Part shown: positions 15,865-22,431 of the stretch, in pieces
Numbering within the stretch: position 1 is the stretch's first letter
Layout of the letters: every line of letters starts with the position of its first letter
Assembly (NCBI GenBank): GCA_009837815.1
Contig: VXSV01000135.1
Span: forward strand, 1 to 43,701
Direction of reading: 5' to 3'
Source of the DNA: Acidimicrobiia bacterium
GTDB taxonomy: Bacteria > Actinomycetota > Acidimicrobiia > Spongiisociales > ZC4RG35
DNA: 43,701 nt
Position numbers and translations under genes: made by a program
Notes under the pieces: model-generated
The model's database searches: none
What the model was told of the DNA's origin: nothing
The model's input: the letters and a program-made list of their open reading frames with translations, nothing else

Positions 15865-17220
15865 ATGCCGCCACCCCTACCCGAACGCTATCGCCTTGAG
15901 GTTCGCCTGGGCAGAATCGAGGGTGTCGAAGAGTGGCTGGCCACCGACACGGTGTTGGACCGGCCGGTACAACTGCGGGTGCTCGGCCCGGAGACGGCGC
16001 CTTCCCTGCGTGAAGATTACCTTCAAGCCGTGCGCCTCTCGACAGTGGCGGCTCATCCCAACCTGCTTTCGGTTTACGATGCAGGCGCCGTCCCCGGGGG
16101 AGTGTTCGCGGCCTACGAGTGGACCGGAGGGGCAGCCTTGTCCCACCGGCTGGCGGCCGGCGCCAAACCGAGTTCTGCCGAATTTCAACCGAACGCCGCC
16201 GGCCTGGCCGGGGCGCTGGCAACCCTGCACGAGGCCGGCATCGTACACGCCCGGATCAGTCCCAACACGATCTATTACTCGGTGGACCATCCGGCCAAGC
16301 TGGGCGGAGTGGGTCCGCCCAACGATGAAAGCACTTTCACCAGCGATGTAGTGCAACTGGTCGAGACCCTGGAGCATTGGGCGATCGGCGCGACGTCGCG
16401 GGGCCTGCCCCTCTCAGAGTTGGTGGATGGCATCGCCCCCGCCATAGACGACATCCTCGCTGACGCCGCCGCCGGACAGCTGACCTCGTCGGAGTTGGCC
16501 GCCCTCCTGGCGGCGGCCCCCGCCACCACCAACTCCTCCTCCCGGACGCCCGGCGCCTCCCGGGTCGGGGTGTGGCTGACCACTGGCCTGATAGCCACCG
16601 CGATTGGACTGGTTGGCATGGGCACCCTGCTGTCGGCCGGCTCTGTTTCACCTCCACCTTTGCAGGAATCAACCACCACCCTCACCACTACCCTGCAAAC
16701 GCCCACCGTGACAGAAGCCGCCCCTATGCCAACCGTTCAGTCCCCGGAACCGGTTGCTCCTCCCGCTCCGGTACTCACTACGACGCCACCTGCGCTGTTG
16801 GACGTCCCGATCGTGTTTACTCTCGACCCCTACGGGGGCGGAGGGGAAATGGACCACCGCCTGGGGTTCCTGGTGGATGGAGACCGTGACACCACCTGGC
16901 GAACCGAGCGCTATTTCGACCCGCTGTCGTTGATCAAGGCGGGCGTCGGGCTGGTGATGACGCCTCCTGCCGGCGCGCGACAACTCGAACTATGGGGCAT
17001 CACCCCGGGAACCGTTTACACTCTGTCCTGGGCGGAGTCTCCCAACGCTTCCCTGGAAGAATGGAGTCCGGTGGCTACCGGGCAAACCACTTCCGGCGCC
17101 TTCTTTCTCACCTTGCCTCATCAGCCGGACGGTTCCTGGCTGCTGTGGTTCACCGAACTGCCAAATGTAGGTCCCGAGAACTATTCAACTTCGATCGCTG
17201 AAGTTCGGTTTTGGGGTTGA
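15865..17220 (+). CDS. Membrane pseudokinase with exported discoidin-like domain (MurJ C-terminal module)
   Basis: 451 residues. Residues 8-215 resemble a Ser/Thr kinase fold but are inactive by sequence: the VAIK lysine is replaced (VQLRVL, Arg38), HRD has become HAR (128-130) followed by ISPN, and no DFG is present (LGGVG). One membrane segment spans about 234-258, then a Pro/Thr-rich linker, then an exported domain (about 313-451) beginning FTLDPYGGGGE and containing LVDGDRDTTWRTERYFDP. The same order, pseudokinase, helix and this exported domain, forms the C-terminal half of mycobacterial MurJ/MviN (Rv3910), which lies at the equivalent position upstream of trxB. The MurJ flippase part is absent here. 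In Mycobacterium the phosphorylated pseudokinase domain recruits FhaA; whether that holds here is inference. Confidence 0.82.
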   Translation: MPPPLPERYRLEVRLGRIEGVEEWLATDTVLDRPVQLRVLGPETAPSLREDYLQAVRLSTVAAHPNLLSVYDAGAVPGGVFAAYEWTGGAALSHRLAAGAKPSSAEFQPNAAGLAGALATLHEAGIVHARISPNTIYYSVDHPAKLGGVGPPNDESTFTSDVVQLVETLEHWAIGATSRGLPLSELVDGIAPAIDDILADAAAGQLTSSELAALLAAAPATTNSSSRTPGASRVGVWLTTGLIATAIGLVGMGTLLSAGSVSPPPLQESTTTLTTTLQTPTVTEAAPMPTVQSPEPVAPPAPVLTTTPPALLDVPIVFTLDPYGGGGEMDHRLGFLVDGDRDTTWRTERYFDPLSLIKAGVGLVMTPPAGARQLELWGITPGTVYTLSWAESPNASLEEWSPVATGQTTSGAFFLTLPHQPDGSWLLWFTELPNVGPENYSTSIAEVRFWG

Positions 17221-17329: not shown

Positions 17330-17623
17330 GTGCAATTCGAAGAACTGCCCACTCGCTTCGCCGATGCACTTGAAACGGTGGCCGGTCGGGTACGGGCCAT
17401 GACCGCCGACCGGATGGAAGGGTGGATCCGTACAGCCATGTTCCTCGGGATCGCAGTGGTGATCGGTGCTACCGGCCTGGTCTTCCTGCTGATCACCGCC
17501 CACCGGGCTCTGGCGATCGGCTTGGGCGCGGCGGGCTCGCTGGCCACCCTGGGAGGACTATTTCTCATCGCCGGGCTGTTGATATGGAACAGGGGAACAA
17601 CCCATCCGCGAGGTCGAGAATGA
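17330..17623 (+). CDS. Small two-segment membrane protein
   Basis: 97 residues, not recognised as a named family. An amphipathic N-terminal stretch (about 1-37) is followed by two hydrophobic segments (about 38-58 and 62-86) and a short basic tail. The layout recalls actinobacterial holin-superfamily membrane proteins, but the similarity is only in general form. The GTG at 17330 lacks a clear Shine-Dalgarno; ATG at 17399 is an alternative that keeps both membrane segments. The stop overlaps the trxB start as ATGA, which supports it being a real translated gene. Confidence 0.6.
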   Translation: MQFEELPTRFADALETVAGRVRAMTADRMEGWIRTAMFLGIAVVIGATGLVFLLITAHRALAIGLGAAGSLATLGGLFLIAGLLIWNRGTTHPRGRE

Positions 17624-18555
17624 ACGACATTCAAAAGGTGCTGATTATCGGAGGGGGGCCTGCAGGCTACACCGCCGCTTTGTACGCGGCCCGCGCCGAG
17701 TTGGCTCCCCTGGTGCTGGAAGGCAGCACCCCGGGAGGCCAGCTGATGATCACTACGGACGTGGAGAACTACCCTGGCTTTCCCGAGGGCGTGCTCGGTC
17801 CCGAGATCATGGAAAAGTTCCGAGCCCAGGCTGACCGGTTCGGCGCCCAGCTCATCAGCGAGGACGCCACCGCCGTCGACTTCTCCTCCACGCCCCTCCA
17901 AGTAGTCACCAATGGCAAGGTCCACCGTTCCCACACTGTGATAATCGCCACCGGCGCCAGCGCCAAATGGCTAGGCGTGCCGGGTGAAGAGCGACTCACC
18001 GGCCGGGGAGTTTCGGCCTGTGCAACCTGTGACGGCTTCTTCTTCAAGGACAAGGATCTGTTGGTGGTGGGCGGCGGCGACTCCGCAATGGAGGAGTCCT
18101 TATTCCTCACCAAGTTCGCTTCCTCGGTTACGATTGCCCACCGCCGTGACGAATTCCGCGCCTCCGCCATAATGGCGAGGCGCGCTCTGGCGAACCCCAA
18201 GATCAGGGTGGAGTGGAACACGGTCGTCGAAGAGATCCACGGGGAGGAACAGGTGACCGGCGTCACCCTGGTCGACACTCTTAGTGGGGAAGCCAGGCGA
18301 CAGCCTGTCAACGGAGTTTTCGTGGCGATAGGCCATCGACCCAACACCGAGCTGTTCTCCGGGTGGGTAGCATTGGACGAGCGCGGTTACATCGCTCTCG
18401 CCAATGCCGGCGGCACCGCCACTTCCGTGCCAGGGGTGTTCGCGGCGGGTGATGTGGCTGATCCCACATATCGCCAGGCCGTCACCGCCGCGGGGACCGG
18501 GTGCCAAGCCGCTCTGGACGCTGATCATTATCTTCAAAACACCGTCGGGCTGTAG
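17620..18555 (+). CDS. trxB: Thioredoxin reductase
   Basis: FAD- and NADPH-dependent reductase that keeps thioredoxin reduced; 311 residues, the bacterial low-Mr type. FAD motif IIGGGPAGYTAALYAARA, PGGQLMITTDVENYPGFP, redox-active CATC at Cys134-Cys137, NADPH motif VVGGGDSAMEESLFL with HRRDEFRA, and the C-terminal AAGDVADPTYRQAVTAAGTGCQAALDA (FAD ribityl contact) split by only short variations. The ATG at 17620 overlaps the upstream small membrane gene. The frame is open further upstream but only antisense-like sequence is encoded there. trxA follows 31 bases later in the same operon. Confidence 0.97.
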   Translation: MNDIQKVLIIGGGPAGYTAALYAARAELAPLVLEGSTPGGQLMITTDVENYPGFPEGVLGPEIMEKFRAQADRFGAQLISEDATAVDFSSTPLQVVTNGKVHRSHTVIIATGASAKWLGVPGEERLTGRGVSACATCDGFFFKDKDLLVVGGGDSAMEESLFLTKFASSVTIAHRRDEFRASAIMARRALANPKIRVEWNTVVEEIHGEEQVTGVTLVDTLSGEARRQPVNGVFVAIGHRPNTELFSGWVALDERGYIALANAGGTATSVPGVFAAGDVADPTYRQAVTAAGTGCQAALDADHYLQNTVGL

Positions 18556-18586: not shown

Positions 18587-18910
18587 ATGGCGGACAACCT
18601 TCTCACTATCACCGACCAGAATTTCCAGGACGTCATCTCGGGCGACCGGCCCGTGCTGGTCGACTTCTGGGCCGAATGGTGCGGCCCCTGCCGTTTGATC
18701 GCTCCCCACCTCGAGGCGCTCGCCACAGACCATCCCGACCAGTTGGCTGTCGCCAAACTGAACATCGACGAGAACCCTCAATCGCCTGCGAGCTACGGCG
18801 TGATGAGTATCCCCACCCTCATCTTGTTCAAAAACGGGGAAGAAGTGCAGCGTATAGTGGGCGCGCGCCCCAAAGAGTGGCTCTATAAGAACATAAAAGA
18901 GCATCTCTGA
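18587..18910 (+). CDS. trxA: Thioredoxin
   Basis: Small dithiol oxidoreductase of 107 residues with the classical WCGPC active site (Cys32, Cys35) in VDFWAEWCGPCR, the cis-proline in SIPTLILFKNGE, and DENPQSPASYGVMS. The ATG at 18587 follows AAGGA at 12 bases. It is the substrate of the TrxB encoded immediately upstream. Confidence 0.97.
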   Translation: MADNLLTITDQNFQDVISGDRPVLVDFWAEWCGPCRLIAPHLEALATDHPDQLAVAKLNIDENPQSPASYGVMSIPTLILFKNGEEVQRIVGARPKEWLYKNIKEHL

Positions 18911-18998: not shown

Positions 18999-19961
18999 AT
19001 GCGCCGCTACCAGCTAGGCAATTCCGGAGAGGGCGTCAGGGAAATACAGGAACGTCTCTCCGCCCTTGGGCACGGTTGCGACCGGGACCGGCCCGGAGAA
19101 TTCGGGGAGGCCACCCTGGCGGCGGTAAAGGCGTTCCAGCGGACCCGAAGCCTGCCGGCCACCGGAGTGGTGGGACAGGAATCCTGGAGGGCGCTTTATG
19201 AAGCCGGCTACCGGCTGGGTGACCGCCTGCTCTTTCTGCGGCGGCCCATGCTGCGCGGGGACGATGTCGCTGAACTCCAGAGCCGGCTGGACGCCTTGGG
19301 GTTCGACACCGGCAAGCCCGATGGCATTTTCGGCCCCCAGACGGAGCGAGGCCTGCGCGATTTTCAGTTCAACCGGGGTCTGGCGATCGACGGGATCTCC
19401 GGCCCCGAGGTCATAACCGAATTGCGTTTGGTGGCGCGCGGGGAAATGCGGGCGGGCCGAGTGACGCTCCGAGAGCGCGAGTGGCTCCGTTCGCGGCCCT
19501 CCACCCTGGTTGGCGCCCGAATCTACTTCGATCCGGCCTGTCGCACCCAGGAGGAGGCCTCGGTGAGCTGGGAGGCAGCCACCGCAGCATCAATAGCGCT
19601 CCAGCAGGGGGGCGGGACCCCCATCCTTTCCCGGGGGGTGGACAGCACTTTTCCCGAGCGGGTGCGGGCGCGGCGAGCCAATCGCATGGGAGCGGACCTG
19701 ATTGTCTCTTTCCAGCTCTCGGGCCAGCCAAAGGGGGTGATCAGCTACTTCGCCACCTCACAGAGCCATAGCGTCGCCGGCAAGTTGATCGCTTCCTGCC
19801 TGGCCAAAGCTATGGACCTGGAGGTGGTTGGCCAGGCCACGGCCATTCTCAAGGACACCCGGTCGCCGGCGGTGGTCATAGCCGTCCCCGATTTGGGCGC
19901 CACCACGGGAGAGGCCGCGGTGCTAGGCCTCAAGCTCTTTTTCGAGACCCCGATCTCCTGA
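18999..19961 (+). CDS. cwlM: CwlM-like protein: two peptidoglycan-binding domains plus degenerate amidase
   Basis: 320 residues. Two PG-binding-1 repeats occupy about 8-68 (SGEGVREIQERLSALG) and 82-142 (RGDDVAELQSRLDALG, then PDGIFGPQTERGLRDFQ). Residues 172-318 align with N-acetylmuramoyl-L-alanine amidase type 3, but the zinc site is destroyed: the usual DPGHG is DPACR (178-182), the SIH histidine is replaced in SFQ (237-239), and the catalytic glutamate near the C-terminus is replaced in VVIAVPD. The protein therefore cannot be a conventional amidase. In Mycobacterium CwlM (Rv3915), also just after trxB-trxC, works as a regulator of MurA rather than as a hydrolase. No signal peptide is seen, consistent with a cytoplasmic role. 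Confidence 0.83.
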   Translation: MRRYQLGNSGEGVREIQERLSALGHGCDRDRPGEFGEATLAAVKAFQRTRSLPATGVVGQESWRALYEAGYRLGDRLLFLRRPMLRGDDVAELQSRLDALGFDTGKPDGIFGPQTERGLRDFQFNRGLAIDGISGPEVITELRLVARGEMRAGRVTLREREWLRSRPSTLVGARIYFDPACRTQEEASVSWEAATAASIALQQGGGTPILSRGVDSTFPERVRARRANRMGADLIVSFQLSGQPKGVISYFATSQSHSVAGKLIASCLAKAMDLEVVGQATAILKDTRSPAVVIAVPDLGATTGEAAVLGLKLFFETPIS

Positions 19962-20159: not shown

Positions 20160-20780
20160 ATGGCCGGCCACGACGGGATGAATACCGTCCGGAGAGCCGC
20201 CGACTGGGCAGGGATCAGCCTAACCGCAGGCCAACTTGCTCTTCTCGGAGATCTTGCCGACTGGCTGGTCGCAGAGGCGATCCCGGCGGGCGGCCTGGGG
20301 CCCGCAGAAGGGCCGGTGGTGCATTCCCGACATCTTGCCGACTCTCTTTTGTTCGCCACCCCTTGGCGCTCTCGGCCAGGCTCCCCGGCCACCATCCTTG
20401 ACATAGGCGCCGGCGTGGGCCTTCCCGGCCTGCCTCTGGCCATTTGTTGGCCCTCCAGTCGCGTCACCCTCCTGGAGCGGTCGGCGCGGCGCTCTGACCT
20501 GGCGAAGCGTGCGGTGCGCCTCTTGGGTTTGGAGAACGTCGAAGTTGCCACCACCCAGATGCGGGAATGGGAGACCACCGCTGAACTGTTGGTGTGCCGC
20601 GCGGTGAGTTCCCCCAACCGCCTCAGAGGGGACCTGCGCAGGCTTCTCGACCCCTCCGGAGTAGCAGTGATCGGGGGTTCGCATCACACCCTGCCCAACT
20701 ATCAAGGGTTCTCGACCTGCCGGATTCCATCCAATATCCTTGGAAACCCGGTGTGGCTCCTTATCATGGACAAAACATGA
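20160..20780 (+). CDS. rsmG: 16S rRNA (guanine527-N7)-methyltransferase
   Basis: SAM-dependent methyltransferase that modifies G527 of 16S rRNA (also called GidB). 206 residues from the ATG at 20160. SAM-binding motif ILDIGAGVGLPGLPLAI and LLERSARRSDLAKRAVRLLGL are clear, as is HSRHLADSLL. The C-terminal third is short and divergent: the usual K-G after the glycine-rich turn is replaced in VAVIGGSHH. TTG at 20136 would add LFHVKHNQ encoded by parS; neither start has a good Shine-Dalgarno, so the start is uncertain. It overlaps parA as ATGA. Orientation is opposite to that in Mycobacterium relative to jag-yidC. Confidence 0.9.
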   Translation: MAGHDGMNTVRRAADWAGISLTAGQLALLGDLADWLVAEAIPAGGLGPAEGPVVHSRHLADSLLFATPWRSRPGSPATILDIGAGVGLPGLPLAICWPSSRVTLLERSARRSDLAKRAVRLLGLENVEVATTQMREWETTAELLVCRAVSSPNRLRGDLRRLLDPSGVAVIGGSHHTLPNYQGFSTCRIPSNILGNPVWLLIMDKT

Positions 20781-21556
20781 CCTCTGCTTTGATCGCCATC
20801 ACCAACCAAAAGGGCGGCGTAGGCAAAACCACCACGTCTATCAACCTCGGCGCCGCCTTGGCGGGCTTGGGCGAATCGGTTCTGGTCCTGGATCTGGACC
20901 CCCAAGCCAACGCCACCTCCGGATTGGGCGTCAACCATGAAGAGGTTGCTGTTTCGATTTACGACATCCTGCTCAAAGACACGCCCGTCGAGGACGCCAT
21001 CGAGCCTACCGCGGTAAGAAACCTCTATCTCCTGCCCTCCACCCGACATCTTGTCGATGCCAACATCGAACTGGTGCCCATGATGGCCAGAGAACAAAAG
21101 CTGCGAAATGGTTTGCGAGAAATCGACGGGCAATTTTCCTATGTCTTGATCGACTGCCCACCTTCCCTAGGCCTGCTAACGGTAAACGCCCTCACTGCCG
21201 CTCACTACGTCATGATTCCGATGCAGTGCGAGCAATACGCCCTCGACGGCCTCATGGAACTGAATCGCACCATCGAAATGGTTCGCTCCGCTCTCAATCC
21301 CTCCCTGGAGCTCCTCGGGGTCCTCTTGACCATGATGGACGGCAGGACGCGTCTCTCCAGAGAAGTATCCGAACAGGTAAAGGGCTACTTTGGCGACAAT
21401 GTCTTTCGCAGTTATATCCCTCGTAGGGTTCGGCTGGCCGAGGCGGCATCCTATGGGGAGCCCATCGACATCTTCGACAACATGAACCGGGGCGCCATCG
21501 CCTACCGGAGACTGGCCGAGGAGCTCCGTGACCGTCTCAAAGCAAAGGGGGCATAG
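20777..21556 (+). CDS. parA: Chromosome-partitioning ATPase ParA
   Basis: Deviant-Walker ATPase that moves ParB-parS complexes; 259 residues, the usual chromosomal ParA (Soj) size. The P-loop is KGGVGKTTTSIN with the signature lysine, followed by VLDLDPQANATSGLG and the Walker B segment YVLIDCPPSLGLLTVNAL. The ATG at 20777 overlaps the rsmG stop and the parB start follows 5 bases after the parA stop. The absence of an N-terminal helix-turn-helix indicates a chromosomal rather than a plasmid type Ia protein. Confidence 0.97.
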   Translation: MTSALIAITNQKGGVGKTTTSINLGAALAGLGESVLVLDLDPQANATSGLGVNHEEVAVSIYDILLKDTPVEDAIEPTAVRNLYLLPSTRHLVDANIELVPMMAREQKLRNGLREIDGQFSYVLIDCPPSLGLLTVNALTAAHYVMIPMQCEQYALDGLMELNRTIEMVRSALNPSLELLGVLLTMMDGRTRLSREVSEQVKGYFGDNVFRSYIPRRVRLAEAASYGEPIDIFDNMNRGAIAYRRLAEELRDRLKAKGA

Positions 21557-21561
21557 CCACA

Positions 21562-22431
21562 ATGACCAGCCGTCGAGGAGGATTGGGCCGGGGTTTGAGC
21601 AGCACCCTGATCCCAACCGGTGAACCGGCCTCCGTTTCACCCTACCGGGAAATCCCCATCAGCCGGATCCGTCCCAACCCCTCCCAGCCCCGCACGCATT
21701 ATGACGAGGAGACGCTCCGGGGTCTGGCCCGTTCCATCATCGAGGTCGGGGTGCTACAACCCGTTGTGGTCCAGGAGGCCGATAACGGCTACACCCTCAT
21801 CTCAGGTGAGCGTCGCTGGCGGGCCGCACAACTGGCAGGCCTCGAAAGTATACCTGCCATGCTGCGACAGGCCGATGAGACCGCCGTTCTCACACAGGCG
21901 CTCATCGAGAACCTCCAACGGGAAGATTTGACTCCCTTGGAGGAAGCCTCTGCCTACCGCGACCTCATTGATCAACACGGTCTGACCCAGCAGGAGGTAG
22001 CCCATCGGGTAGGCAAAGGGCGCGCCACGGTAGCCAACAGCGTCCGGCTCCTCCGCCTGCCGCCGCCCATTCTCGAACTCCTGGAGACCGGCAAGCTCAC
22101 CGCCGGGCATGCACGGGCGCTCCTTTCGGTGTCCGACCCCAAGTACGCGACTCACATCGCCAAACGGGCCGTGGCGGAGGGTTGGACGGTTCGGCAGGTT
22201 GAAGAGGCCGCTAATGCGAGGGTCCCGCGCAAACGGGCCTCGCGCACCGCCAATACCCCTCGGCCTGCACAGATCGTCGAATTGGAGACCCGGCTCACCG
22301 ACCAGTTGGGTCTCCCCGTCTCCATCAGCTACGGGAACCAAAAGGGGAGCGTGAAGGTCGGGTTCAACTCGATTGACGATTTGCAAAGAGTCTTCGCCAA
22401 GCTGATTGCCCCCTTGTCAGAGAGGGCGTAA
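21562..22431 (+). CDS. parB: Chromosome-partitioning protein ParB
   Basis: CTP-dependent DNA clamp, 289 residues. N-terminal RRGGLGRGLSSTLIP, the CTP-binding arginine patch GERRWRAAQLAGL, ENLQREDLTPLEEA, a helix-turn-helix (LTQQEVAHRVGKGRATVANSVRLL) that reads parS, GHARALLSV, and a C-terminal dimerisation domain after about 225. Two perfect parS sites lie upstream of the same gene cluster. It is convergent with jag, with only 34 bases between the stops. Confidence 0.97.
   Translation: MTSRRGGLGRGLSSTLIPTGEPASVSPYREIPISRIRPNPSQPRTHYDEETLRGLARSIIEVGVLQPVVVQEADNGYTLISGERRWRAAQLAGLESIPAMLRQADETAVLTQALIENLQREDLTPLEEASAYRDLIDQHGLTQQEVAHRVGKGRATVANSVRLLRLPPPILELLETGKLTAGHARALLSVSDPKYATHIAKRAVAEGWTVRQVEEAANARVPRKRASRTANTPRPAQIVELETRLTDQLGLPVSISYGNQKGSVKVGFNSIDDLQRVFAKLIAPLSERA

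Follow-up and report, generated by a model that had tools for sequence, protein, structure and literature searches.

What does a homologue of amidase-3 enzymes do once its active site has decayed, and does it work in the way described for CwlM of mycobacteria? The question is raised by one gene in the 43,701-nucleotide stretch of DNA from an Acidimicrobiia bacterium that is here called the window. In Mycobacterium, CwlM (Rv3915 / MSMEG_6935) is a PknB-phosphorylated activator of MurA (PMC4946905, PMC6180346, PMC12723410), and activation of MurA in vitro by the M. tuberculosis protein depends on both phosphorylation at its C-terminus and its REEEL helix (PMC4946905, PMC12723410). M. tuberculosis CwlM from which the tail was missing failed to activate MurA, the in vivo effect of CwlM on MurA was modest, and the interaction between the two proteins could not be measured in that mycobacterial work of 2025 (PMC12723410).

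The open reading frame of the gene lies at 18999-19961 on the + strand of the window, runs exactly from ATG to TGA over 320 codons, and encodes a zinc-site-less amidase-3 homologue of 320 aa; the source genome is 2.34 Mb in size and 94% complete. Two peptidoglycan-binding repeats, which together score 116 bits against Pfam PG_binding_1, occupy residues 4-68 (19008-19202, +; PF01471 in two stretches, and the structure model) and residues 86-140 (19254-19418, +; the best PF01471 stretch), and the best PDB sequence match, in the region of repeat 2, is the N-domain of SleB. A linker helix with the residues R158-E159-R160-E161-W162-L163 follows at residues 154-165 (19458-19493, +; conservation and model), where mycobacterial CwlM has its REEEL site. 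The remainder is an amidase-3-like fold without a zinc site at residues 172-316 (19512-19946, +; model and Foldseek), for which the Pfam Amidase_3 match stays below threshold (23.4 bits against a cut-off of 27). Just one open codon precedes the ATG, too little for a signal peptide, and the protein has no hydrophobic segment; a lack of signal peptide has been stated for all actinobacterial CwlMs (PMC4946905). The two repeats and the missing signal peptide had both been read correctly in a preliminary description of this DNA.

Upstream of cwlM, on the same strand, are trxB (17620-18555; Pfam and synteny) and trxA (18587-18910; PF00085 and conserved synteny), and downstream are rsmG, or gidB (20178-20780; PF02527), parA (20777-21556) and parB (21562-22431), the last two called from reading frames and synteny and all three on the + strand; pcnA, jag and yidC are further neighbours by sequence. 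The trxB-trxA-cwlM group beside rsmG-parA-parB is kept in nearly all loci of the order that were examined, and is also the arrangement around mycobacterial cwlM. Within the source genus rsmG-parA-parB (20178-22431) is co-directional with cwlM; almost every other locus of the order that was examined has parB-parA-rsmG pointing towards cwlM, that is, the block is inverted. Orthologues were found in most of 60 relatives, the protein is related over its full length to other CwlMs, mycobacterial ones included, and the CwlMs of the order form one supported group (100) on the CwlM tree. Its identity as a CwlM orthologue is well supported. A phage origin of cwlM was considered and rejected, as phage proteins match the peptidoglycan-binding repeats only and coverage of the query stays below 80% in every record. 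At G000:C150:19142-22075 several peptidoglycan-binding repeats also occur in an open frame of great length (1827 aa), and congeners have similar long frames.

The zinc positions of the window CwlM were read by alignment to zinc-intact CwlMs. DPACR (residues 178-182; 19530-19544, +) replaces DPGHG and places Cys181 at the first zinc-ligand His, SFQ (residues 237-239; 19707-19715, +) replaces SIH/SLH and places Gln239 at the second, and Ala295 (19881-19883, +) takes the place of the catalytic Glu. These substitutions are those of the preliminary description, which called the degeneration complete; this was overstated, because the zinc-ligand Glu aligns to a retained Glu186 (19554-19556, +), present in 47/50 members of the order as well, so that three of the four active-site residues are lost. 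From the loss of the zinc site it follows, as far as sequence can tell, that the protein would have lost catalysis, and the earlier proposal of a CwlM that is unlikely to be an enzyme is well supported. None of the 50 sampled members of the order (Acidimicrobiia) has a full zinc site in the alignment, and dN/dS between CwlMs of the same genus is 0.03-0.08, so that the loss in the window is not an accident of one assembly. In the six other members of the class, outside the order, the site is degenerate too. Some other Acidimicrobiia CwlMs (L074, L087-L091) lack the whole metal-site loop and are more degenerate than the window CwlM; CwlM-like proteins of other actinobacterial families (L226, L232, L235-L237, L240) align through their repeats and not through the zinc site or the C-terminal end, and in these the C-terminal domain may be of another kind or truncated.

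Loss of the zinc site is as such already known in kind, since Boutte et al. 2016 (PMC4946905) reported missing zinc ligands in mycobacteria, where the zinc and catalytic positions read R/E/R/D in our alignment, and found the active site to be dispensable and conservation to be mixed among Actinobacteria. The site is intact in 18 of 34 other CwlMs of our first sample and in most of the second, and on a quick, unrooted CwlM tree built without the zinc-site columns the intact and lost states switch at least 9 times across the phylum. Because zinc ligands have been lost so many times, their loss alone is no argument for MurA activation.

The fold itself has been kept. An AlphaFold model computed from an alignment of 64 relatives has a mean pLDDT of 92.3 and a complete amidase-like fold; its pTM, only 0.58, leaves it uncertain how the domains are placed towards one another. 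Foldseek matches include Rv3717, Ami1 and CwlV, and the nearest solved structures are those of the amidase-3 enzyme Rv3717 of M. tuberculosis (4m6h/4m6i; TM 0.65 over the target), which bears out the recognisable amidase-3 fold noted earlier. Most amidase-3 enzymes (Rv3717/Ami1, CwlV, AmiC) share the fold at a TM of ~0.55-0.65 over the target, and differ from the window CwlM in that the latter is cytoplasmic, falls below the Pfam cut-off and is without three of the four zinc and catalytic residues. The within-genus dN/dS amounts to strong purifying selection on cwlM, with a smaller ratio for the repeats than for the amidase-like part. Across the order the pseudo-amidase is the least conserved part (0.60); the inter-repeat segment (0.83) is the most conserved, followed by repeat 2 (0.78) and then by the linker helix (0.77), where E159 and W162 are invariant in the order and R158, E159 and E161 are conserved within and beyond it. 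A degenerate hydrolase domain that serves as a regulator has a precedent in EnvC of E. coli, although EnvC is periplasmic and activates amidases (PMC4946905), whereas the window CwlM is cytoplasmic and linked to precursor synthesis.

Evidence on what the protein acts upon comes from genomes of the order that have lost it. Well-covered genomes without cwlM are found in a family, f6 (G038, G045, G051, G058; 95-97% complete), and in a genus, g8 (G012, G026); two more genomes, G028 and G032, were not counted as they are only 82% and 75% complete and have congeners with cwlM. In f6 and g8, psk (the pseudokinase gene described below), trxB and trxA share a contig with the adjacent parB-parA. Nothing recognisable as cwlM lies between trxA and parB in any of the six genomes, and the spacing between the trxA and parB hits is 61-144 bp in five of them and 791 bp in G026. 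The only full MurA of these genomes shares 35-37% (f6) or 30-31% (g8) identity with mycobacterial MurA; for all tested MurAs from CwlM-bearing genomes outside family f36 the figure is 47-59%. On the MurA tree one supported group (62 rows, 99) holds the enzymes of CwlM-type genomes, and those of f6 and g8 stand outside it on separate long branches and are only 30% identical to each other, so that they look like two separate replacements. Of these divergent MurAs (L280-L285), that of g8 has Cys at the fosfomycin-target position, where those of f6 and the MurA of the source genome have Asp.

The same association is seen at the scale of the phylum. Among 199 genomes, CwlM-type MurA, called by a strong match (E <= 1e-125) to a profile of CwlM-partner MurAs (A3), occurs in 156/162 genomes with CwlM and 5/29 without (Fisher 3e-20), a count that is confounded by clades and not phylogenetically independent. 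Eight incomplete genomes without a MurA match were left aside, and G197, which is complete and match-less, was counted as lacking CwlM-type MurA; absence of CwlM was assigned at the analyst's threshold of E ~1e-20, and several of the genomes so assigned have weak partial matches. The six exceptions with CwlM come from fragmented assemblies, with the match in two pieces in three of them, and their MurA genes are likely truncated. For three of the five exceptions with CwlM-type MurA and no detected CwlM, the protein is present in congeners or in other genomes of the family. The cleanest losses are f6 and g8, and G160, G197 and G072 are further candidates. A small literature search, itself weak evidence of absence, found no earlier description of a comparative coupling between CwlM and MurA.

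The residues proposed to join the two proteins in mycobacteria, CwlM E178/E179 with MurA R346/R355 as predicted contacts (PMC12723410), are half changed here. Counted from the zinc-ligand Glu of mycobacterial CwlM, E178/E179 correspond to R160/E161, and in the MurA of the source genome positions 346 and 355 are Tyr and Arg; the E178-R346 contact is thus not kept, and the E179 position is still Glu. R355 is Arg in 51/62 main-group MurAs and in 0/6 from cwlM-less genomes, the MurAs of which have a one-residue insertion and an Arg at 351. Covariation between CwlM E178 and MurA R346 was looked for and not seen. The MurA of family f24, whose CwlM has no linker motif, carries the same loop insertion as the cwlM-less genomes; f24 is the only case that fits, and covariation of linker and loop is not established because other CwlMs without the motif, in ~15 genomes with a linker unlike REEEL, come with an uninserted MurA loop.

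That the window CwlM works by phosphorylation through PknB, as in mycobacteria, has in its favour that the genome encodes a PASTA kinase of the PknB type, MurA and MurJ, and that the synteny of cwlM is that of M. tuberculosis. It also shares with mycobacterial CwlM the order of its domains, the lack of a signal peptide, the trxB-trxA-cwlM-parB/parA/rsmG locus, orthology on sequence, the loss of both zinc His residues and an R-E-x-E linker, and differs from it in having Ala rather than Asp for the catalytic Glu and Arg at the position of E178. We nevertheless consider this mechanism very unlikely. The protein ends ~7 residues past the amidase-like fold, so the phosphorylatable C-terminal threonine that had been suggested as a check is not there, and neither a C-terminal tail nor a PTG/TGT motif occurs in any of 50 members of the order. 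In our second set of CwlMs the PTG/TGT tail is seen only in mycobacteria and a single family related to them, and a further family has a degenerate version of it; L089 has a PTG, which may be chance. Boutte et al. (PMC4946905) describe the distribution otherwise, and their sample and motif rule are not the same as ours. FhaA_N, present in 42/60 relatives and 177/199 genomes of the phylum, is absent from all six genomes of the source genus, another difference from mycobacteria, and the wall-kinase cluster at its usual place appears by reading as fhaB-pstP-rodA-pbpA-pknB without fhaA, pknB being confirmed. Upstream of the fhaB-like gene at L223 (G000:C48:20000-34800) a sequence resembling 'mobile mystery protein' genes was seen, by reading only. 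As the tail needed for MurA activation in M. tuberculosis is missing here, the published mechanism is not simply transferable. An active site re-made from Cys181, Glu186 and another ligand, or a redox sensor at Cys181 beside trxA/trxB, is hardly credible, even though 41/50 members of the order have Cys at the first ligand position, nearly all have Glu186, and trxB-trxA adjoins cwlM. The third ligand position varies in the order (Q, R, A, T, G and others), and an alternative metal site, named earlier as a refutation, was rejected because no third position is conserved; moreover the catalytic Glu is gone in 49/50 and the Cys is replaced by A, G or V in 9/50, and the trxB-trxA neighbourhood is kept in more distant loci also.

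A different target is suggested by psk (15865-17220, +), upstream of trxB, which encodes a pseudokinase, a TM segment at ~234-261 and a C-terminal domain, with HMM matches to mycobacterial MviN; it is the counterpart of the C-terminal portion of mycobacterial MviN/MurJ and lacks the MurJ portion. Long matches to it occur in 57/60 relatives, and it lies upstream of trxB in most order loci. Mycobacterial CwlM has been reported to bind the intracellular domain of MurJ (PMC6180346), and a non-enzymatic membrane scaffold could be imagined that acts with the MviN-type pseudokinase protein mainly on lipid II flipping and not on MurA. This we regard as unlikely: psk and cwlM are not lost together, for all six cwlM-less genomes keep psk and family f8 has CwlM without it, and what was replaced was MurA. 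In addition, binding of CwlM to MurJ could not be confirmed (PMC12723410). In contrast to mycobacteria, the MurJ of the source genome (547 aa) ends ~20 residues past its last TM helix and has no intracellular linker of the kind that binds M. tuberculosis CwlM, which also counts against the mycobacterial phospho-mechanism. The pseudokinase part of mycobacterial MviN is a stand-alone gene in this order (window 15865-17220; L213, L214, L218), with a MurJ without the intracellular domain encoded at another place. It is also improbable that the link between cwlM loss and MurA is indirect, both having changed for another reason such as a wider change of the envelope, with CwlM aimed at something else. 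Clearly independent events are few and the phylum count follows clades; against this stand two nested cases, independent of each other, each with a precise deletion and with a different MurA, and other candidate cases in the phylum.

The coupling to MurA is supported by comparative evidence, in that cwlM loss coincides with a different MurA, and the CwlM-type MurA regulator first proposed for this gene is right in direction, as a non-enzymatic protein linked to MurA, though not by the phospho-mechanism. The zinc-free, tail-less CwlM is probably a non-enzymatic, phosphorylation-independent partner of one MurA subfamily, kept for that purpose, which would contact MurA and raise or stabilise its activity. 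The conserved part would most likely make this contact, namely the pair of peptidoglycan-binding repeats together with the R-E-x-E-W helix of the linker, and the pseudo-amidase fold would serve as a scaffold. Any control must be independent of a tail, since there is none to be phosphorylated, and might be exerted by ligands of the repeats. Set against this reading are the requirement for the tail in vitro and the modest effect in vivo in mycobacteria, the lost E178-R346 contact with no covariation, the many CwlMs that accompany an ordinary MurA loop without a REEEL-like linker, the five genomes that have CwlM-type MurA and no detected CwlM, and the chance that the deleted partner and the replaced enzyme share a third cause. 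ReoM/IreB of Firmicutes is likewise a cytosolic protein that acts on MurA, but is unrelated and promotes degradation of MurA by ClpCP (PMC12723410).

On a wider view, there is about an even chance that CwlM has since ancient times been dedicated to a single MurA subfamily of actinobacteria as its partner, that its catalytic site became dispensable early and decayed many times, that the phospho-tail came late, and that loss of cwlM forces the exchange of MurA for a self-sufficient one. There is no settled account of how actinobacteria switch MurA on, and the tail-less CwlMs, together with the lineages that have no cwlM and another MurA, are clean material for asking whether CwlM is at base a partner of MurA and what phosphorylation contributes. 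As MurA commits the cell to wall synthesis, the answer bears on the control of growth in the whole phylum.
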